A program made the translations under genes and the position numbers. The notes under the pieces are model-generated. The model did not search any database and was not told the DNA's origin. It saw only the letters and a program-made list of their open reading frames with translations. This document shows positions 45,223 through 54,405 of a stretch of DNA of 64,000 bases, one piece after another; the first letter of the stretch is position 1, and every line of letters begins with the position of its first letter. The DNA lies in assembly GCA_022843465.1 (NCBI GenBank), contig JALHNO010000020.1, positions 1 through 64,000 of the forward strand, written 5' to 3'. Origin of the DNA: Pseudomonadota bacterium (GTDB taxonomy: Bacteria > Pseudomonadota > Gammaproteobacteria > Xanthomonadales > Ahniellaceae).

Positions 45223-45324
45223 GCACGCCAGCGCGACTTCCTGTAAGAAAGCGCTCCGCTGGTGCGCGCGCTCGAAGCTGCGCCGCTATGCTGGCCGGCG
45301 CAGTCATTGAATGCGAGTGATCCC

Positions 45325-46590
45325 ATGGAAGCGAAGCAAGGCCCGCATGTGCTGATCCTCGGTGGTGGTTTTGCTGGCCTCTGGGCGACGCGCGGACTGG
45401 CCAGCGCACCGGTCCGGATTACCCTGGTCGATCGCACCAACCACCATTTGTTCCAGCCACTGCTCTATCAGGTGGCCACGGCCGGACTATCGGCACCGGA
45501 TATCGCGGCGCCGCTGCGGCACATTCTGCGCCATCAACGCAATGTCAGCGTGCGCATGGACGAGGTGAGATCGATCGATCCGCAGCAGCGCCGCGTGCAC
45601 TGTGCGGAGGGGGTGCTCGAGTACGACTTTCTGCTGGTCGCGCTCGGCGCAACGCACTCCTATTTCGGCAACGACGGCTGGGCACCGCATGCGCCCGGAC
45701 TGAAAACCCTTGACGACGCCTTGCGTGTGCGGCGCCGCATCCTGTCGGCATTCGAGGCGGCCGAGCGCGAATCCGATCCGCTGCGGCGTGCGGCCCTGCT
45801 CAACTTTGTGGTGATTGGCGCTGGCCCCACCGGGGTGGAACTTGCCGGCACGCTTGCCGAGATTGCCCGCCACACCTTGCCGCGCGAATTCCGCCACGCC
45901 GATCCGGGCACGGCCGGGATTCATCTGGTCGAGGCTGGCGCCAAGGTGCTGGCTGCGATGCCTGATTCGCTGTCGGCCAGCGCCCGCCGCCAGCTTGAGG
46001 CGCTTGGGGTCAGCGTGCATCTGGGCAATGCCGTCACCGCCATCGATGCCAGCGGTGTGCATCTGGGCGATCGCCATATTCCCAGTCACACCGTGCTCTG
46101 GGCGGCCGGCGTTGCCGCCACGCCGGTAGCGCGCAGCCTCGGCGTGCCGCTCGATCGCGCGGGTCGCGTGGTTGTGGAAAGCGATCTCTCGGTGCCGGGG
46201 CATGCCGGGATCTTTGTTGCCGGCGATCTCGTCAGCATCAAGGATGCAGCGGGTCGACCGGTGCCGGGTGTGGCGCCGGCAGCCAAGCAGATGGGCGCAC
46301 ATGTGGCGCGTGCCATCCGTGCGCGCCTGGCGTCGCGGACGCCGCAGCCGTTCCGCTATCGCGATTTCGGCAACCTCGCGACCATCGGTCGGATGGCGGC
46401 GGTGGTCGATCTCGGTCGTCTGCGTTTCTCCGGCATACTGGCCTGGTGGTTCTGGCTGATCGCCCACATCTTCTTCCTGATCGGTTTTCGCAACCGACTC
46501 AGCGTGCTGCTCAACTGGGCCTGGTCGTATTGGACCTACCAGCGCGGCGCCCGCATCATCACCGGCAGCGAGCCGCCCGCGGAGCCCTGA
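45325..46590 (+). CDS. ndh: Type II NADH dehydrogenase (NDH-2)
   Basis: The 421-residue flavoprotein has the FAD motif LILGGGFAGLWA at the N-terminus, a second dinucleotide motif VVIGAGPTGVELAG (about 170-183) for NADH, and GIFVAGDLVSI in the C-terminal FAD-binding part. A hydrophobic C-terminal stretch (about 375-405) anchors it to the inner membrane. It passes electrons from NADH to quinone without pumping protons. The ATG at 45325 was chosen because the FAD motif starts soon after it. Confidence 0.92.
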   Translation: MEAKQGPHVLILGGGFAGLWATRGLASAPVRITLVDRTNHHLFQPLLYQVATAGLSAPDIAAPLRHILRHQRNVSVRMDEVRSIDPQQRRVHCAEGVLEYDFLLVALGATHSYFGNDGWAPHAPGLKTLDDALRVRRRILSAFEAAERESDPLRRAALLNFVVIGAGPTGVELAGTLAEIARHTLPREFRHADPGTAGIHLVEAGAKVLAAMPDSLSASARRQLEALGVSVHLGNAVTAIDASGVHLGDRHIPSHTVLWAAGVAATPVARSLGVPLDRAGRVVVESDLSVPGHAGIFVAGDLVSIKDAAGRPVPGVAPAAKQMGAHVARAIRARLASRTPQPFRYRDFGNLATIGRMAAVVDLGRLRFSGILAWWFWLIAHIFFLIGFRNRLSVLLNWAWSYWTYQRGARIITGSEPPAEP

Positions 46591-46703
46591 TTCGCGCGAG
46601 CAGCTTCGCCGCTGCTGACCACGACACTGCGCGCACCCAGCCGGCCTTAACACGGCGCTAACCGGATTCCGACCCGGCTCCGACAGTCACAGCTGTACAA
46701 CGA

Positions 46704-47516
46704 GTGCTCCGATGGTCGCCGCTGATCGGCCGCGCAATTCGCGCAGCTCGGCCCTTCGGTTTGATGGGCGCACCCGCGTTGAACTCTCTGTTGGCAGGCC
46801 ACTGGCCTGAGGCCAGACCCACCCCGCGCGCAGACGCCGCGTACTACTGCGCACACCTGCTGGTGCCCGTGCTGAGCGCGCTCTGCGCCAGCCTGTGGCT
46901 GATGCTGCTTGGCGGCGACCAGTGGCTCGCGCACCAGATCTACAGCTGGGGCGGCGGTGAATGGTGGCTGCGCAAACATCTAGTGACTGCTCAGCTCATT
47001 CATCCCGGCGGCAAGTATCTGAGCGCGTCACTGTGGCTGGGCTGTGCCTGGGCCTATGGTCGCACTCGCAGCGATCCTGCCCTGCAGCGCTGGCGCAGAC
47101 CGCTCGCCTACCTGCTGCTGACGACTTTGCTCGCGACCAGCCTGATCGCCGTGCTCAAGGCACAACTGGCGATGGATTGCGCCTGGGATGTGATCGGCTA
47201 CGGTGGCCAGCGTCCCTACCTCGTCCTGTTCGAGGCGCGGCCGTCCTGGCTACCGCGGGCCGGATGCTTCCCGGCGGGGCACGCCGGCTCCGGCTATTGC
47301 TGGGTCGCCTGGTACTTCTTCCTTGCAAGAACCATCCCGAAATGGCGCTGGTACGGCCTCGCGGGCGGTCTGCTGCTGGGTCTGACCTTCGGTGTCTCGC
47401 AGCAGTTGCGCGGTGCCCACTTCGCTTCGCACGATGTCGCGACGCTGCTGATCTGCTGGCTGGTGGCGCTGGGCTTGAGCGCTCTGATGCTGCGCTCAGC
47501 GGCAGGCCGGTCATGA
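46704..47516 (+). CDS. PAP2-family membrane phosphatase
   Basis: About 270 residues if it starts at GTG 46704; an ATG at 46764 gives 250. It has several hydrophobic segments and PAP2 motifs: KAQLAMDCAWD, FPAGHAGSGYC with the conserved His, and RGAHFASHDVAT. It probably removes phosphate from a lipid, such as undecaprenyl-diphosphate or lipid A. Its stop overlaps the eptA start (ATGA), so they are coupled. The reliable start is uncertain, as no ribosome binding site is obvious. Confidence 0.85.
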   Translation: MLRWSPLIGRAIRAARPFGLMGAPALNSLLAGHWPEARPTPRADAAYYCAHLLVPVLSALCASLWLMLLGGDQWLAHQIYSWGGGEWWLRKHLVTAQLIHPGGKYLSASLWLGCAWAYGRTRSDPALQRWRRPLAYLLLTTLLATSLIAVLKAQLAMDCAWDVIGYGGQRPYLVLFEARPSWLPRAGCFPAGHAGSGYCWVAWYFFLARTIPKWRWYGLAGGLLLGLTFGVSQQLRGAHFASHDVATLLICWLVALGLSALMLRSAAGRS

Positions 47517-49213
47517 ATCCGCCCTCCGGTCGGCGAACCTGGTGGCAGGCGATCGGCGTGCGTCCCGAGCTGAGCGTGGAGTCGATTGCCCTGTTCAGCT
47601 GCCTGTTTGTCGCCCTGTTCTGCAATGCCTCGTTCTGGCGCGCCGCGCTCGTCGGCTATGCCATCGACAGCCTGGACACCTGGCGCTTCATTTTCGGCAC
47701 CTTCGTCGCGCTGGTCGGTCTGCATCTGACCGTGTTCCTGTTCGTGCTTAACCGCTGGACGCTCAAGCCGCTGCTGGCAATCCTGTTTGTGACCACCGCA
47801 ATGGCGGCCTTCCATCAGGACCGCTATGGGGTGTTTCTCGATGTCGGCATGCTGCGCAACATCCTGCATACCGAGTACAAGGAGGCCCGTGAGCTGTTCA
47901 CGCCAGGCCTCGCCGTGCAGTTGCTGGTGCAGGCCGGAATTCCGATCCTGGTGCTGCTGCGACTGCGCGTGGTCAGGCGCAGCTGGAACCGGGCACTGTG
48001 GATCCGCCTGGCGATGATCTGCGCGACCCTGGCGGTCACTGCATTCGGCATGCTGCTGTCGTTTCGCGATTTGTCGATCCTGATGCGCAACCACAAGGAA
48101 GTGCGTTATCTGGTGACGCCGGGCAACTATCTCTATGCGAGTCTGCGCGCCGGCGTTGCCGACGTGAAAGCCGGACGCGCAACACTGGCGACTGTCGGAG
48201 CGGATGCCAGCAAGCTGGCGCGCCCGCTCGGAGCACGTCCCCGGCTCGTGGTGGTGGTGGTCGGTGAGACCGTGCGCGCAGACCATTGGGGGCTGAACGA
48301 CTATGCGCGGGATACGACGCCGCAGCTGCGTGCGCTCGGCGTCACCAATTTCCCCGAGGTCTCCAGCTGTGGCACCGCCACTGAAGTCTCGTTGCCCTGC
48401 ATGTTCTCTGCAGTCGGTCGTCGCGATTACGACGAGGAGCGCATCCGCGGTTCGGAATCCCTGCTGCATGTGGTCGAGCGCGCCGGCGTGGCGACCCTTT
48501 GGCGCGACAATCAGACCGGCTGCAAAGGCGTCTGCCGCGATCTCGATTTCCAGCAGCTAAATGCACTTGAGGTTCCCGGCCTGTGTGCGGGTGGCCTGTG
48601 CCAGGACGAGATCCTGCTTGAAGGACTGCAGCTCGAACTCGACCGTCGACCCGGTGACCTGCTCGTGGTCCTGCATCCGCTTGGCAATCATGGCCCCAGC
48701 TACTACGCCCGTTATCCGGATCGATTCCGCCGCTACACGCCGACCTGCGATACCGCGGAATTGCGCCTGTGCAGCAGCGAGCAGGTCATCAACAGCTACG
48801 ACAATGCCGTGCTCTATGCCGATCATGTGGTCGCCCAGACCATCCGGCTGTTGCAGAAGCAGCCTCGCGACAGCGCCCTGATCTATGTTTCCGATCACGG
48901 GGAATCCCTCGGCGAACACAATCTCTACCTGCACGGCATCCCGTATTCGATTGCACCGAGCACACAGACGGCGGTGCCGATGATCGCCTGGCTCAGCCCG
49001 GAGATCGAACACGCGCTCGGCATCGATGTGAGCTGCCTGAACAGGGTAGCCGCGCAACCGGCCGCACACGACCATCTGTTCCACAGCGTCATCGGGTTGC
49101 TCGGCGTAAGTACCCAGGCCTACCAGCCGGAGTACGACCTGTTCCAACGTTGTCGCGACGCGGGCGCACTGATCGCGCACGCCGCGCAGGCCGCGCCGCC
49201 CGCGCCGCGCTGA
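47513..49213 (+). CDS. eptA: Lipid A phosphoethanolamine transferase (EptA/MCR family)
   Basis: The 566-residue protein has about five N-terminal transmembrane helices and a periplasmic alkaline-phosphatase-like domain. It keeps VVGETVRADHWGLNDYARDT, the nucleophile segment SCGTATEVSLPCMFS, HPLGNHGPSYY, and the metal-binding YVSDHGESLGE. It would transfer phosphoethanolamine to lipid A phosphate, which lowers charge and can raise polymyxin resistance. Several Cys pairs in the periplasmic part fit the disulfides of this family. It overlaps the PAP2 gene by four bases. Confidence 0.93.
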   Translation: MNPPSGRRTWWQAIGVRPELSVESIALFSCLFVALFCNASFWRAALVGYAIDSLDTWRFIFGTFVALVGLHLTVFLFVLNRWTLKPLLAILFVTTAMAAFHQDRYGVFLDVGMLRNILHTEYKEARELFTPGLAVQLLVQAGIPILVLLRLRVVRRSWNRALWIRLAMICATLAVTAFGMLLSFRDLSILMRNHKEVRYLVTPGNYLYASLRAGVADVKAGRATLATVGADASKLARPLGARPRLVVVVVGETVRADHWGLNDYARDTTPQLRALGVTNFPEVSSCGTATEVSLPCMFSAVGRRDYDEERIRGSESLLHVVERAGVATLWRDNQTGCKGVCRDLDFQQLNALEVPGLCAGGLCQDEILLEGLQLELDRRPGDLLVVLHPLGNHGPSYYARYPDRFRRYTPTCDTAELRLCSSEQVINSYDNAVLYADHVVAQTIRLLQKQPRDSALIYVSDHGESLGEHNLYLHGIPYSIAPSTQTAVPMIAWLSPEIEHALGIDVSCLNRVAAQPAAHDHLFHSVIGLLGVSTQAYQPEYDLFQRCRDAGALIAHAAQAAPPAPR

Positions 49214-49435: not shown

Positions 49436-52400
49436 ATGAAAAGTCCTGCCCGATCCGCCCTGACTCCACTCGCGCTGACGCTTGCTGCGGTGTTCAGTTC
49501 CACGCTCGCTGCGCGCGAGCTTGGCAATTTCGACATCAATACCGCCGCTGGCAACAAGCGCGCTGTTGCCGGGATCTCGCAGACGGACGCGCATCCGCCG
49601 CGGATCGGGCGCGACGCCCTCGGCCGCGCGACCTTCAGCTGGGTGCAGCAGGATCTGTCAGCCGCCGCCAAGGCCGTTGTGCACGATCCCGAGTCGGCGG
49701 CACGCGCCCACCTCGGGCTGCTGCTCGACGATGCCAAGCACCGCATCGACGCGGCGACCGCTCTGAAACTGCACAAGATCGATACGCAGCGTGGTGGCGC
49801 CAGACTGGTGCAGTTCAAGGCCCAGTTGCAGGGCATCCAGATATTCCGTGAGGACCTGGCCCTGTTGCTTGATCGCGATCAGCGTCTGGTCGCCATGCGC
49901 GGACCATTGCCGGATACCTCGGCTGCCCAGGCCAAGTCGCTGCCTGCGTTCCGGCTGAGTGCTGCCGAAGCCATCGCGGCCGCCCTGAAGTCCTATGACT
50001 TTCCCGCCGAGGTCGCTGGCAAGCTGCGGCCGGGTGTGCTCAACGGCGCCTATCAGCACTTCGAACTGCCGGCCAAACTGAGCAGTGCCAGTGGTGCCGT
50101 TGCCGCCGGCGAGCAACGTGCAAGGCGCGTCTACTACCGCACTTCTGCCGGGCTGCAGCCGGCCTGGTACGTGGAGACCCAGATTGCCGATTCGGCCAGC
50201 GCCTCCGGCGACCTGTACGGTCATGTCATCTCGGCCGTCGATGGCAGCACGCTGTTCCGCAAGAATCACACCGCGCATGCGGATAGTTTCAGCTACCGTG
50301 TCTGGGCCGAAAACAGCAGTGAGGGCCTGCCCTATCCGAGTACGTTCGGGCGCAATGCCACGCCGGACCCGGACGGCCTGCCGACCAACAACGTCGTCGC
50401 GACGATTCCGCAGGTGTTGCGCAGCCTGGCCAATGCGCCGTTCAGCCGCTCGGCAACCGATGGCTGGCTGGCGCCGGGTGCCAGCACCACCAATGGCAAC
50501 AATGTGCGTGCCTACGCTGATCTGGTCGCCCCCAGCGGCCTCGGTGACGGTGATCTGTTGCCGGCTGCGACCAGTCCGGGAAGCTTCGACTACCTCTATG
50601 ACGTGAACCTGAGTCCGGGTGCCAGCGCAACTCAGAGCCAGGCCGCGACGGTGAATCTGTTCTACGTGGTGAACTGGTTGCATGACTGGTTCTACGATCA
50701 CGGATTCAGCGAGACCGATGGCAACGCCCAGCTCGATAATTATGGGCGCGGTGGCCTGGGTGGCGATCTGATTCGTGCCGAGGCGCAGGATTACGACGTG
50801 ATGGACAATGCCAACATGGCGACGCCGAGTGATGGATTCTCGCCGCGCATGCAGATGGGTCTGTGGGGCACAAGCACGGTGCGTGACAGCAGTCTCGACG
50901 CAACGATCATCGCCCACGAGTGGGGGCACTACCTCAGCAATCGCCTTGTACTGGACGCCAACGGTCTGGATACCCAGCATGCCTCTGGAATGGGCGAAGG
51001 CTGGAGCGATGTCCTTGCGTTGCTGATCATGACCAAGGAGGAGGACCGCCTCAAGCCCGGGAATGCCAATTTCGCGGGGGCCTACGCCAGCGCCGGATAT
51101 GCCGCGAACGATTCCTACTATGGCGTCCGTCGCTATCCCTACTCGACCGACATGTCCAAGAGTCCGCTGACCCTGGGTCACCTCACCGACGGCAGCTTCC
51201 TGCCGAGCAGTCCGCCGCCGCGGTTCTTCGGGTCGAACACGGCGATTCACGGTCAGGGCGAGGTCTGGGCGCTCGCCCTGTGGGAGGCCTATGTCGCGAT
51301 GTTGAACGACACATCGCGACTGAGCTTCAACGAGGCACAGAGCCGGATGAAGGATTATCTGGTCGCCGGCATGAAGATGACCCCGGGCTCGCCGACCATG
51401 GTGGAGGCACGCGACGCCATCCTGGCCAGCATCCTTGCCAGCGGCCAGACAGCGGACTTCGCCCTGTTCACAGCGGCGTTTGCCAAGCGAGGCCTGGGCG
51501 CTGGTGCGCTGATTCCTGATCGCTACAGCTCCACCAATGCTGGCCTGATCGAGAGCACCCAGCAGGGCGCCGATATTGCGGTCGCAGCGGCAGCAGTCGG
51601 GATCCCCACCGGCTGTGATGCCGATACCGTACTGGATGTTGGCGATACCGCAATGGTTTCGGTGACCGTCAGGAACACCGGTTTCACCACCCTGAGTTCG
51701 GCAACGGCCACCTTGAGCTCGAGCAATCCGGCACTGGTGTTTCCCAATGGACCGACCATCGACATCGGCAGCGTGCCGCTGTTCGGCAGCAAGACCGCGA
51801 GCATTCCGGTGCGACTGGCCAGCACGGTGCCGGCAAATTCCGCCATCACGATCACCGCCACACCGAACGCTGCCGGCATAAACGCGCCGCCAGGGGCGAT
51901 CGGCTCGACCCGGATTTTTGTCAACTACGACCAGATTCCGCAGGCGAGTTCGAGCGAGACCTTCGACGGCAATCGGACCACCTGGCGTGCCCGTCGCGAT
52001 CCTGCCGGTACCGGCACCGAATCGTGGATCCAGCGCGAGGAGAACGGGCAGTTCTTCCTGCACGGTTCCGATCTGAATTCCAATTCCGTCAACTGGATCG
52101 AGTCGCCCCAGCTCGCAGTTGGCAGTGGGCCGCTGACCATCACGCTGAACCATCGCCATGCCTTCGAGACCGACGCCAACGAGTTCTACGATGGCGGCGT
52201 GATCCAGGCCAGCATCGACGGTGGTGTTACCTGGACCGATGTCGATGCCGCCGCTGCCGGCTATTCGACCGGGGCGCTGTCGGCCTGCTGTGGCAACCCG
52301 CTTGCCGGCAAGCGCGGCTATCTGCACAACAGCGCGCTGTTTCCGAACTTCCGGGATCAGGTCATCAATTTCGGCACGACCTATGCGAACCAGGCCAACT

Positions 52401-53323
52401 TCAGGCTGCGTTTCGGTGTCGCCACCGACGCCGCTTCGAACGGGCTCGGCTGGGACATCAACACGGTGACCTTCAGCGGCCTGACCAATACCCCGTTTGA
52501 TGCGGTCAGCGCACAGGCCGCGAACTGCAGCCTGAGCAATGGCAAGTCCCTGCAGGGCGCGCTTGGTGGTACCTACTATTCCGCCCAGCGTTCGGGCGAG
52601 GGTGTGCTGGTTGACTTCGGCCAGGTCGGCACCACGCCGGTGGTGTTCTTCACCTGGTACACCTATGCCGATGGCGAGCAGCAGTGGCTGGTCGGCAGCA
52701 AGGACTTTGCGACCACCGACAAGAGCATTGCCATCGATCTGATCAGCACCCGCGGCGCCAGTTTCGGCAGCGGATTCCAGCCCAGTGATGTTGTGCGTTC
52801 GTCCTGGGGCAGTGCGGCGCTGTCGTTCACCGACTGCAATACCATGACGCTGAATTATCAGAAGGCCACCGGTGAACGCGGTACACAGACGCTGAGCAGG
52901 TTGTTCGGGGCGATGCCGGCCGGGCAATGCGGCCTGCTCCATGGCGGCTTGAGTGGCACGTATTACTCGCCCAGCCGATCCGGCGAGGGTGTGCTGGTCG
53001 ACTTCGGTCAGGTCAATGGTACGCCGATCCAGTTCTTCACCTGGTACACCTATGGCAGCGGCAGTCAGCAATGGCTGGTCGGCAGCCACGCCTTCAGCGC
53101 GGGCGACAGCATGCTCGCGCTGGATCTGGTCAGCACGCAGGGCGCCAGCTTTGGCGACGCCTTCAATCCCGGCGATGTCATCCGCACGCCCTGGGGCACG
53201 GTCACCCAGCGCTTCCCCGACTGCAATACCCTGGAGCTGAGCTACCAGAAGGCCGGCGGTGAATCGGGCACGCAGACACTGACACGCGTGCTTGGGCGAC
53301 TCGAAACCGGGCAGTGCCAGTAA
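49436..53323 (+). CDS. Secreted M36 (fungalysin) metalloprotease with two C-terminal repeat domains
   Basis: The 1295-residue protein has a signal peptide, an FTP-like propeptide (about 65-280) and a catalytic domain with HEWGH (494-498) and downstream EGWSD (521-525), the zinc ligands of M36 peptidases. After it come a bacterial Ig-like segment (about 700-800), a lectin-like region with CCGN, and two homologous domains (about 1045-1165 and 1170-1295). Both of these carry SGEGVLVDFGQV and FFTWYTY. The ATG is 222 bases past eptA. It is exported, probably by the general secretion pathway with later maturation. The FxDGFE motif seen on its neighbours is absent. Confidence 0.93.
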   Translation: MKSPARSALTPLALTLAAVFSSTLAARELGNFDINTAAGNKRAVAGISQTDAHPPRIGRDALGRATFSWVQQDLSAAAKAVVHDPESAARAHLGLLLDDAKHRIDAATALKLHKIDTQRGGARLVQFKAQLQGIQIFREDLALLLDRDQRLVAMRGPLPDTSAAQAKSLPAFRLSAAEAIAAALKSYDFPAEVAGKLRPGVLNGAYQHFELPAKLSSASGAVAAGEQRARRVYYRTSAGLQPAWYVETQIADSASASGDLYGHVISAVDGSTLFRKNHTAHADSFSYRVWAENSSEGLPYPSTFGRNATPDPDGLPTNNVVATIPQVLRSLANAPFSRSATDGWLAPGASTTNGNNVRAYADLVAPSGLGDGDLLPAATSPGSFDYLYDVNLSPGASATQSQAATVNLFYVVNWLHDWFYDHGFSETDGNAQLDNYGRGGLGGDLIRAEAQDYDVMDNANMATPSDGFSPRMQMGLWGTSTVRDSSLDATIIAHEWGHYLSNRLVLDANGLDTQHASGMGEGWSDVLALLIMTKEEDRLKPGNANFAGAYASAGYAANDSYYGVRRYPYSTDMSKSPLTLGHLTDGSFLPSSPPPRFFGSNTAIHGQGEVWALALWEAYVAMLNDTSRLSFNEAQSRMKDYLVAGMKMTPGSPTMVEARDAILASILASGQTADFALFTAAFAKRGLGAGALIPDRYSSTNAGLIESTQQGADIAVAAAAVGIPTGCDADTVLDVGDTAMVSVTVRNTGFTTLSSATATLSSSNPALVFPNGPTIDIGSVPLFGSKTASIPVRLASTVPANSAITITATPNAAGINAPPGAIGSTRIFVNYDQIPQASSSETFDGNRTTWRARRDPAGTGTESWIQREENGQFFLHGSDLNSNSVNWIESPQLAVGSGPLTITLNHRHAFETDANEFYDGGVIQASIDGGVTWTDVDAAAAGYSTGALSACCGNPLAGKRGYLHNSALFPNFRDQVINFGTTYANQANFRLRFGVATDAASNGLGWDINTVTFSGLTNTPFDAVSAQAANCSLSNGKSLQGALGGTYYSAQRSGEGVLVDFGQVGTTPVVFFTWYTYADGEQQWLVGSKDFATTDKSIAIDLISTRGASFGSGFQPSDVVRSSWGSAALSFTDCNTMTLNYQKATGERGTQTLSRLFGAMPAGQCGLLHGGLSGTYYSPSRSGEGVLVDFGQVNGTPIQFFTWYTYGSGSQQWLVGSHAFSAGDSMLALDLVSTQGASFGDAFNPGDVIRTPWGTVTQRFPDCNTLELSYQKAGGESGTQTLTRVLGRLETGQCQ
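52545..53323 (+). repeat. Internal duplication encoding tandem C-terminal domains
   Basis: Two stretches of about 370 bases encode similar domains with RSGEGVLVDFGQV, FFTWYTY, QQWLVGS and DCNT in the same order. Divergence at many codons suggests an old duplication that was kept, not a recent one. Confidence 0.85.
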
Positions 53324-53446: not shown

Positions 53447-54220
53447 TCACGTTTCATCCAGCAACCGGAGCATTCGCTTCAACGCAAAATGGCGATAGCT
53501 CTGCTCGATCAATCCGCGCATCTCGTCGGCGCTGCTGCGTTTGCTGACATCGAGCGCAGTCCAGCCTTGGTGGCCGAGATAGGGCGGCACCCGGAACCGC
53601 GGGTCTTCGATCAGCATGCTCTGCAGTTCGGCGCCGGTCCAGACCGCGAGACTCAATCGGCCATCCAGAAAGTACAGCTGGGCAAAGCAGCGCTTGCCAG
53701 CGCGCCAGACCGGGAATCCGAACTGCCGCTGCTCGCTGGTCTCGGGCAGCGCCAGACAGATTTCGCGCACCTTGGCCAACATCTTCTGCGCCGCCGCTGT
53801 CTGCATCGGATCGAGTTCATCGGCAGCCAGTGATCGCGTTGGTGCCGTGACCGTCGCTGTCGTCTTGATCAGCGCGCGCATTCTTGCTGGCGCCGTGTGT
53901 TCGTAAGCCTCGCGCACCAATCCGGCAATTCGGGTCCACGACAGTCCTTGATCGAGACAGACGCCGAGCCAGCCCCGCGGACCGACATACGGAGGTACAA
54001 AGAACTGCCCCGGCTCATTCGCACAGTGCAGGGCCTGCGCTCCGGGCGGTGCATTGAGCCAGAGCGCCACGCGGCCATCGCCGTGCGTGTTCACCGCATA
54101 GACCGCAAACACCTTGCCCTTGCGTACTCTGAAATTCGGCGCACCATGGGAGACGAATTCCTCGGCCTCGGGAAGGCCCAGGCAGACTTCGCGTACCGTT
54201 GTTGCAATATCGTCCGCCAC
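53447..54220 (-). CDS. Duplicated MmcQ/YjbR-family protein
   Basis: About 257 residues if it starts at GTG 54220 behind AGGGA; a TTG at 54292 is possible. It contains two copies of the MmcQ/YjbR fold. The first is at about 1-110, with VCLGLPEAEEFVSHGAPNFR and GWLGVCLD. The second is at about 140-255, with ICLALPETSEQRQFGFPVWR and GWTALDVS. MmcQ/YjbR proteins are often single-domain and may bind DNA; function here is unknown. It is convergent with the M36 gene across the REPIN-like element. Confidence 0.82.
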   Translation of the reverse strand: MADDIATTVREVCLGLPEAEEFVSHGAPNFRVRKGKVFAVYAVNTHGDGRVALWLNAPPGAQALHCANEPGQFFVPPYVGPRGWLGVCLDQGLSWTRIAGLVREAYEHTAPARMRALIKTTATVTAPTRSLAADELDPMQTAAAQKMLAKVREICLALPETSEQRQFGFPVWRAGKRCFAQLYFLDGRLSLAVWTGAELQSMLIEDPRFRVPPYLGHQGWTALDVSKRSSADEMRGLIEQSYRHFALKRMLRLLDET

Positions 54221-54405
54221 GGCGATCCCTGGTTGCGCATGCTGGCGCGAAGGTACTGCCGATTGCGACTGATTGCAGCGTGCAACCGCCAAAGGCGACC
54301 GACGCCGCCTGGCGCACTGTTACCCGCCTGCGTCGTTGTACCTTCCGCGCACGAGTGCTACAACAGGCGTTACCGAGCGCGCCAATCGCGCACCATGGAG
54401 GCAGC

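Follow-up and report, generated by a model that had tools for sequence, protein, structure and literature searches.

Organization of the pap2–eptA locus

The stretch of DNA analysed, hereafter the window, comprised 64,000 nt (contig JALHNO010000020.1 of assembly GCA_022843465.1, positions 1 to 64,000, forward strand). It contained two overlapping genes for a predicted PAP2-type phosphatase and a predicted phosphoethanolamine transferase, with the following features:

45262..46590, + strand: type II NADH dehydrogenase-like gene, upstream neighbour of the pair (family search)
46646..46663, + strand: candidate binding box CTTAACACGGCGCTAACC for a response regulator, made up of two TTAAC-like half-sites 11 bp apart
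46704..47516, + strand: pap2, predicted PAP2-fold membrane phosphatase of the cysteine/histidine ('CCH') subfamily (families, fold and signature)
47513..47516, + strand: ATGA shared by the pap2 stop and the eptA start, a four-base overlap (read from the sequence)
47513..49213, + strand: eptA, predicted phosphoethanolamine-lipid A transferase, 566 aa

The ATG of eptA occupied positions 47513–47515 and the TGA of pap2 positions 47514–47516, which bore out the four-base overlap described in the first-pass annotation. Translation of pap2 may start at the in-frame ATG at 46764 instead of the GTG at 46704, since residues 1–40 of the structural model had low confidence and the conserved part of the homologues starts later. 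The base composition was even, and a family scan of ten proteins encoded between 41386 and 54292 gave no match to mobile-element families.

No two-component genes were found beside the pair in the window. The candidate box, approximately 40 bp upstream of the GTG start, matched nine of the ten half-site positions. Scores of at least 8 were obtained for 40 of 80 pap2 upstream regions versus 4.8% of mononucleotide shuffles, a comparison that ignores the kinship of the loci, uses a motif picked after viewing the window and relies on shuffles preserving base counts only. The genome contained 52 response-regulator-like matches, the best of which (52% identity) was located on another contig, with one TAA reported for the match.

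Conservation of the pair in related genomes

The 80 best-matching loci out of at least 542 relatives, a set leaning to close kin, were compared. In 73 of these 80 loci, pap2 was followed by eptA, and 69 of the 73 had a four-base overlap (ATGA or GTGA), indicating that the overlap is kept above chance; locus L048, where a stop splits eptA into two successive pieces in the same frame, was left unscored in this count. The pap2-first order was the usual one in Lysobacterales, in Halomonadaceae and in some of the Burkholderiales loci seen. The locus is ordinary for its taxonomic order, of the Lysobacterales type, and the pair is already in print for Xanthomonas. An OmpR-type regulator was encoded in the fetched flanks of 59 of the 73 pap2-first loci, unlike in this window. 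DgkA was encoded near 14 of the 73, and its gene overlapped pap2 in loci L026 and L030.

EptA and its relation to MCR

EptA scored above the curated Pfam cut-offs for EptA_B_N (140.6 bits) and Sulfatase (205.9 bits) and above that of the NCBIfam domain model P_eth_NH2_trans (557.6 bits; cut-off 500). It remained under the cut-off of the narrow NCBIfam EptA equivalog PRK11598 (488.7 of 660 bits), a model of the enterobacterial protein. Over its full length it matched N. meningitidis EptA (5fgn, E 1.5e-119). In the alignment to 5fgn the catalytic residues were complete (E252, T290, H393, D461, H462, H474), and the Cys pairs 286/296, 337/341, 358/363, 412/420 and 508/547 corresponded to the five disulphides of the N. 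meningitidis enzyme. Residue roles in that enzyme, other than those of H383 and H465, were taken from PMC8306577. A broken EptA, named in the first-pass annotation as a refuting finding, was ruled out, as all six catalytic residues were present. The assignment is clear at family level, and the protein is predicted to transfer phosphoethanolamine to lipid A.

The nearest MCR family was MCR-5 (47.3% identity, 534.8 of 1250 bits), which the EptA tree placed beside the pap2-first group of Halomonadaceae (support 83/84). All MCR models matched scored far under their cut-offs, and a comparison of phylogenies, proposed in the first-pass annotation, did not bring EptA close to MCR-1, -3, -8, -9 or -10. 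The resemblance to the mcr cassette in reversed order, on which that annotation was built, survived in one respect: the PAP2 is akin to the mcr-1-linked PAP2, with the same three-position signature and in the same clade, but the pair is not a reversed cassette. Its order differs from that of MCR cassettes (transferase, then pap2). Since pap2-first is usual in the order and one change of gene order suffices on the PAP2 tree, inversion of an mcr cassette was ruled out. It is scarcely credible that the pair is an inverted, recently mobile, mcr-like colistin-resistance cassette; the affinity to MCR-5 and its position in the tree speak for this, while the low MCR model scores, the standard occurrence of the pair in related genomes and the even base composition speak against it.

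Fold and active-site signature of PAP2

By sequence, the assignment of PAP2 was weak. It missed the gathering score of Pfam PF01569 by 0.4 bits (26.8 versus 27.2 bits, E 4.9e-06), reached 74.5 bits with NCBIfam PAP2_lipid_A (cut-off 275), and a sequence search against solved structures returned nothing useful (best E 0.94). By fold, as predicted with AlphaFold2 (mean pLDDT 87.3), the assignment was clear. Nothing at E ≤0.001 came from Foldseek by itself; in a second look with VIA-align 2, the model matched B. subtilis PAP2 (5jki, Z 13.5) and Aquifex LpxE (6ebu, Z 11.4). Each of the 17 best VIA rows (Z 8.0 to 13.5) was a PAP2-type phosphatase, an inositol phosphorylceramide synthase, a glucose-6-phosphatase, an acid phosphatase or a haloperoxidase homologue. 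The fold is also common to PgpB. Three motifs were located:

47157..47183, + strand: C1 motif K152-x6-C159-A160 (positions 159 and 160 are Arg and Pro in the canonical KX6RP)
47265..47282, + strand: C2 motif C188-F-P-A-G-H193 (Cys188 covaries with Cys159)
47400..47432, + strand: C3 motif Q233-Q-L-R236-G-A-H239-F-A-S-H243 (His239, the nucleophile, is retained; Asp is replaced by His)

The CCH signature consists of Cys159 at the position of the KX6RP Arg, the loop residue Cys188, and His243 at that of the C3 Asp. These three positions switched jointly in 130 of 131 distinct PAP2 sequences, the one exception having lost both cysteines and kept the histidine, and the canonical Arg and Asp were absent from all 111 non-canonical ones. 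On the basis of covariation, Cys159 and Cys188 form a putative disulphide. Pro160 was likewise present in 130 of the 131 sequences, Ala being found solely in this PAP2. His239 was invariant (131/131), and every sequence had exactly one basic residue at either −6 or −3 of C3, here R236 at −3; this pattern suggests selection on phosphate binding. The C2 His was missing in loci L058 and L060. Compared with the LpxE motif KX6RP--PSGH--SRX5HX3D, the protein reads KX6CA--PAGH--SQX5HX3H. Its gene overlaps eptA, in line with the operons or overlaps of lpxE and eptA in H. pylori, C. canimorsus and Xanthomonas. With Cys, Cys and His at positions 159, 188 and 243, and in a common clade with the PAP2 of mcr-1, it belongs to the hpap2 subfamily, whose branch was separated from eight canonical rows with a support of 98/91.

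Partners of the PAP2 subfamily

Each of the 23 genomes with a CCH PAP2 in a sample taken across the class encoded either EptA (15) or an LtaS-like protein, a putative headgroup transferase (8); the 700-bit cut-off for the latter was chosen after a gap was seen between 704 and 420 bits. EptA was over-represented, occurring in 15 of these 23 genomes versus 21 of 251 others, with kinship of the genomes left uncorrected. Among canonical PAP2 matches from the same search, 1 of 20 occurred with EptA and 1 of 20 with an LtaS-like gene. The per-genome searches scored limited first-look candidates, so that a gene without a match may still be present, and for genome G107 one of two partial matches was taken. 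No EptA match at E 1e-10 was obtained in 8 of the 23 genomes; in seven of these the PAP2 adjoined an LtaS-like gene, with gene order taken from simple open-frame calls. A second, weaker LtaS-like group (<450 bits) occurred in four class-sample genomes, all with EptA. Scores of the LtaS-like proteins against the NCBIfam models for LtaS and phosphoglycerol transferase I were weak and far under cut-off.

A second sample comprised 33 genomes from 19 genera (11 genomes from one genus, g327; five genera with LtaS linkage), of which G519 is, judging by its coordinates, identical with the genome that holds locus L040. EptA or an LtaS-like gene was encoded in 33 of 33 at a loose cut-off and in 31 at the strict one; in the two genomes between, the LtaS-like proteins scored 486 and 461 bits and both genes directly adjoined pap2. 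The PAP2 was located within 1.6 kb of an LtaS-like gene in 15 of the 33 genomes, and pap2 and eptA were adjacent in 7 of the 17 with EptA.

A PAP2 serving solely EptA was ruled out by the eight class-sample genomes without an EptA match, and the pairing with LtaS-like transferases in both samples shows that the subfamily is not EptA-specific. Among open-licence papers we found none joining PAP2 with LtaS-like genes, which is weak evidence of absence. We tentatively propose, as a reading somewhat more doubtful than probable, that the PAP2 proteins beside eptA and mcr-1 form one subfamily with a remodelled active site, dedicated to periplasmic headgroup transferases but exchangeable between them, both EptA/MCR for phosphoethanolamine and LtaS-like enzymes, maybe for phosphoglycerol. 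Its job would then not be specific to polymyxin resistance and would be one needed by both types, such as replacing a phosphate on an acceptor lipid used by both or clearing a by-product of both. The single basic residue of this active site alternates between two positions separated by one helical turn.

Proposed function of the pair

The best explanation appeared to be a chromosomal lipid-remodelling pair of overlapping genes, in which PAP2 would dephosphorylate an acceptor lipid and EptA would then add phosphoethanolamine. We give this two-step model a nearly even chance, with doubt slightly prevailing. On the periplasmic side of the inner membrane, PAP2 would remove phosphate from the acceptor, most likely lipid A, onto which EptA would move phosphoethanolamine from phosphatidylethanolamine. 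The negative charge at the surface would be lowered, with a possible effect on polymyxin. Creation of the acceptor by PAP2, as suggested in the first-pass annotation, agrees with published LpxE–EptA systems (PMC4730577, PMC8306577). The overlap kept in 69 of 73 pap2-first loci, the invariant His239, the fold shared with Aquifex LpxE, the complete EptA residues, the over-representation of EptA with the subfamily and the somewhat higher colistin resistance given by mcr-1 together with its pap2 (PMC7559476) are points in favour. Against the model stand the missing KX6RP Arg and C3 Asp of the Aquifex LpxE active site, the LtaS-like pairing, for which removal of the lipid A 1-phosphate is no obvious explanation, the adjacency of only 7/17 in the second sample, and the findings that mcr-1's PAP2 alone gave no colistin resistance and that MCR does not require it (PMC7559476).

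Lipid A might instead be left untouched, PAP2 acting on a lipid by-product that EptA and LtaS-like transferases have in common; it could, for instance, be a phosphatase or phosphotransferase for a lipid derived from diacylglycerol. Both transferases would release diacylglycerol in the periplasmic leaflet. DgkA uses diacylglycerol, and its gene near 14 of 73 pap2-first loci, overlapping pap2 in two, fits such a role, as do the frequent adjacency of the subfamily to either transferase gene and its confinement to genomes with one of them (23/23, and 33/33 at the looser cut-off). The recycling of a by-product, also raised in the first-pass annotation, gained from the LtaS-like neighbours but lost ground as far as a phosphatidate phosphatase is concerned, which would presumably reverse the DgkA reaction. 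In addition, the phosphatase of the published C. canimorsus LpxE–EptA system acts on lipid A (PMC4730577), and we consider the by-product role unlikely. Rather less probable is a role in supporting the envelope during remodelling, as a phosphatase for undecaprenyl pyrophosphate or for lipid phosphates in general. The fold is shared with PgpB and undecaprenyl pyrophosphate can be a further substrate of LpxE enzymes (PMC6581854), but hpap2 of the same subfamily did not raise bacitracin resistance (PMC7559476), and the subfamily, unlike canonical PAP2 matches, follows the occurrence of EptA and LtaS-like genes.

The loss of the canonical Arg and Asp from all 111 non-canonical sequences, the two loci without the C2 His and the existence of PAP2–MCR fusions with an N-terminal PAP2 (PMC8296556) would suit a catalytically dead PAP2 acting as membrane partner or scaffold of the transferase. 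This is very improbable in view of the invariant His239 and the single basic residue at −6 or −3 throughout. Moreover, Asp takes the place of the C2 His in Aquifex LpxE and the C3 Asp is missing from the H. pylori enzyme (PMC6581854), so neither the C2 His nor the C3 Asp is strictly needed.

Comparison with known systems

Among the closest known systems is that of Xanthomonas, where lpxE–eptA beside raxRH has the same gene order and ATGA overlap in print (PMC8306577). The Xanthomonas loci we fetched had the layout and PAP2 subfamily found here and an EptA of a neighbouring group; the pair in the window differs in lacking adjacent two-component genes and in having Ala instead of Pro160 in its PAP2. 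Lipid A of Xac carries P-EtN beside PP-EtN, and X. campestris pv. pruni has dephosphorylated lipid A (PMC8306577). In C. canimorsus, the two-step LpxE–EptA pathway was established by deletion and mass spectrometry; the phosphatase gene is in one operon with eptA, precedes it and overlaps it, and in H. pylori the operon is likewise shared (PMC4730577). Compared by motif with published LpxE (PMC6581854), in which H. pylori lacks the Asp, the protein described here also has the Arg replaced and contains a cysteine pair. PAP2–MCR fusions of Sutterella and relatives have the PAP2 part first and the transferase second and link the two activities, but in a single polypeptide instead of two genes (PMC8296556).

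The mcr-1–hpap2 cassette (PMC7559476) contains a PAP2 of the same subfamily, with Cys, Cys and His at the diagnostic positions. It differs in being eptA-first and plasmid-borne and in the basic residue of its PAP2 (Lys at −6, here Arg at −3), and MCR-1 is only 35.6% identical to this EptA. According to PMC7559476, mcr-1 with pap2 gave somewhat higher colistin resistance than mcr-1 alone, the PAP2 alone gave none, and MCR functions without PAP2; that paper had already noted the mismatch at the central Asp of the mcr-1-linked PAP2. The subfamily bears on a question in the mcr literature, the role of the PAP2 beside mcr-1: our comparison places that protein in a defined subfamily, names the residues that distinguish it and adds an LtaS-like setting in genomes without an EptA match.

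Organization of the gene pair

The two genes of interest lie on the forward strand:

46704–47516, + strand: pap2, a PAP2-type gene (GTG start, TGA stop, 270 aa; the in-frame ATG at 46764 is a possible start)
47513–49213, + strand: eptA (566 aa)

The overlap reported in the first-pass annotation was borne out, the four bases ATGA being common to both genes. Both domains expected of EptA scored well over the cut-off in a domain search. The protein exceeded the threshold of the NCBIfam phosphoethanolamine–lipid A transferase domain model (557.6 vs 500 bits) and did not reach that of the narrower EptA equivalog (488.7 vs 660 bits). When aligned to the meningococcal EptA structure, it retained the catalytic residues E252, T290, H393, D461, H462 and H474, whose loss would have spoken against a coupled pair, as well as the full set of ten cysteines paired in that structure's five disulphides. 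Its role, phosphoethanolamine transfer to lipid A, is predicted from family membership. The PAP2 assignment was borderline by sequence (26.8 vs 27.2 bits). The predicted PAP2 structure (mean pLDDT 87.3) matched B. subtilis PAP2 (5jki; Z 13.5), Aquifex LpxE (6ebu; Z 11.4) and E. coli PgpB (8bm3; Z 11.3).

Elsewhere in the window, an M36 fungalysin-type peptidase (49436–53323) carries two alike C-terminal repeats (SGEGVLVDFGQV...FFTWYTY...QQWLVGS), and a minus-strand gene (53447–54292) encodes a protein with two YjbR stretches.

Occurrence in relatives

We searched 61 genomes, the window's own and 60 others drawn from the same genus, family and order; PAP2 was matched in 12 and EptA in 20. Within these 12, pap2 directly preceded eptA in eight, one of them the window's genome; the order was reversed in two, the genes were on separate contigs in one, and the twelfth match was a 30-residue fragment. 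In the sole other genome of the window's genus, neither gene had a match. Of the best 80 of at least 542 PAP2 relatives in GTDB contigs, 73 had pap2 followed by eptA on one strand, with the exact four-base overlap in 69 of these 73 and a diacylglycerol kinase gene near 14. Seven loci had no adjoining eptA; the genomes of six were searched, and all six contained an EptA match.

Some loci deviated individually. In Stenotrophomonas sp. PS02298 (L048), an in-frame stop breaks eptA while the adjoining pap2 and dgkA are open. A record titled Bacillus subtilis SK7B5 (L090) contains a pap2-eptA-regulator cluster laid out as in the Stenotrophomonas loci L066 and L074, and is probably an assembly contamination. 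In the Klebsiella variicola EMBL-1 plasmid (L026) and Comamonas testosteroni ATCC 11996 (L030), pap2 overlaps dgkA with no adjoining eptA. Their PAP2 motif stretches are identical and the surroundings of the plasmid pair include a metal ATPase and a cadmium/lead regulator, which together suggest recent transfer.

Active site of the PAP2 subfamily

The PAP2 alignment comprised 136 rows, 131 of them distinct over the core. Three positions covaried among the distinct sequences: 159 in motif C1, 188 preceding FPxGH, and 243 in motif C3. They were Cys/Cys/His in 110 sequences, the canonical Arg/Ser-or-Ala/Asp in 20 and Val/Gly/His in one, in which both cysteines were gone together. A single basic residue occupied C3 −6 or −3 in all 131. 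It was Arg at −6 in 20/20 canonical sequences; the 111 non-canonical ones had Gln at −6 with Arg at −3 (102), Lys at −6 (seven, including the PAP2 linked to mcr-1) or Arg at −6 (two). The nucleophile His239 was invariant. Two subfamily loci (L058 and L060) lacked the C2 His; L136 and L137 had Gln in place of the C1 Lys. In these last two an Arg lies within FPxGH, as though the positive charge had been relocated. Pro160 was present in 130 of the 131, with Ala in the window's protein alone. In a 59-row tree, the subfamily, which takes in the window's PAP2 and the one linked to mcr-1, formed one clade against eight canonical rows (98/91).

In Aquifex LpxE, sulphate is bound by the Arg that is replaced in the subfamily, and the Asp keeps the nucleophile in place (PMC6581854). 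Given these roles of the replaced residues, we infer that the site was rebuilt rather than randomly decayed. The Asp mismatch in the mcr-1-linked PAP2 has been reported previously (PMC7559476).

Transferase partners

A PAP2 match was found in 43 of 274 genomes of the class; judged by motif, the PAP2 was of the subfamily in 23 of these and canonical in 20. EptA was matched in 15 of the 23, adjoining pap2 in five and lying in the fetched stretch in three more. The other eight encoded an approximately 650-aa LtaS-like protein (a putative headgroup transferase); the six scanned were Sulfatase-domain proteins. Its gene lay directly upstream of pap2 and co-oriented with it in six genomes, adjacent but convergent in another, and at a separate place in the genome in the eighth. 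All 23 were among the 51 genomes with EptA or this LtaS-like gene (Fisher 1e-19, ignoring the kinship of genomes). The 20 canonical genomes had EptA in one and the LtaS-like gene in one.

The searches were repeated in 329 genomes of the phylum. The 42 with PAP2 above 100 bits had EptA (25) or the LtaS-like gene (17, two by the looser cut-off only), never both or neither. Of these, 33 were new relative to the earlier whole-genome samples and spanned 19 genera, the LtaS-linked ones just five. All 33 had a partner (31 by the strict rule), with the two genes adjacent (matched stretches less than 1.6 kb apart) in 7/17 EptA-bearing and 15/16 LtaS-bearing genomes. Their motif was Cys/Cys/His in 32; one sequence ends at a contig edge past both cysteines. 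In the PAP2 tree, whose forks are weak, the partner switches between EptA and LtaS-like at least six times.

Possible function and regulation

The best-supported reading, which we hold tentatively, is that PAP2 prepares the acceptor: it would remove a lipid A phosphate, after which phosphoethanolamine would be added. DgkA makes phosphatidate, and its presence in the same operon at some loci makes a plain phosphatidate phosphatase unlikely there. Because the subfamily also pairs with LtaS-like genes, whatever PAP2 does must suit genomes without an EptA match as well; there it may replace the phosphate on a different acceptor or handle diacylglycerol. Diacylglycerol is released by EptA and true LtaS enzymes; its handling by PAP2 we consider rather improbable, and less likely than acceptor preparation.

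An OmpR-type two-component regulator lay within the fetched flanks of 59 of the 73 pap2-then-eptA loci (among the best 80 of at least 542); none was found near pap2 in the window. Upstream of pap2 is one further feature:

46646–46663: TTAAC-N6-CTAAC repeat, candidate regulator box

Similar repeats preceded pap2 in 40/80 loci, compared with 4.8% of shuffles, and the repeat is a lead as a candidate regulatory site.

Relation to MCR and published systems

The pair had been likened to a reversed mcr cassette. In a 42-row tree, the window's EptA instead grouped with pap2-first Lysobacterales EptAs (86/86), a group that includes an X. euvesicatoria plasmid copy. MCR-5 was placed beside a Halomonadaceae pap2-first group (83/84), and MCR-1, -3, -8, -9 and -10 and E. 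coli EptA were elsewhere. The window's EptA was 47.3% identical to MCR-5 and 35.6% to MCR-1.

The overlapping pair is already known from arrangements in print. The Xanthomonas RaxH–RaxR paper describes lpxE-eptA with an ATGA overlap, the phosphatase being predicted as LpxE (PMC8306577). According to a survey, pap2 occurs next to mcr genes and shares an operon with mcr-like genes of Xanthomonas (PMC10285318), and PAP2-MCR fusions with the PAP2 part first are on record (PMC8296556). Deletion and mass spectrometry showed the two-step action of an overlapping lpxE-eptA operon in C. canimorsus; that study also places H. pylori lpxE and eptA in one operon (PMC4730577).
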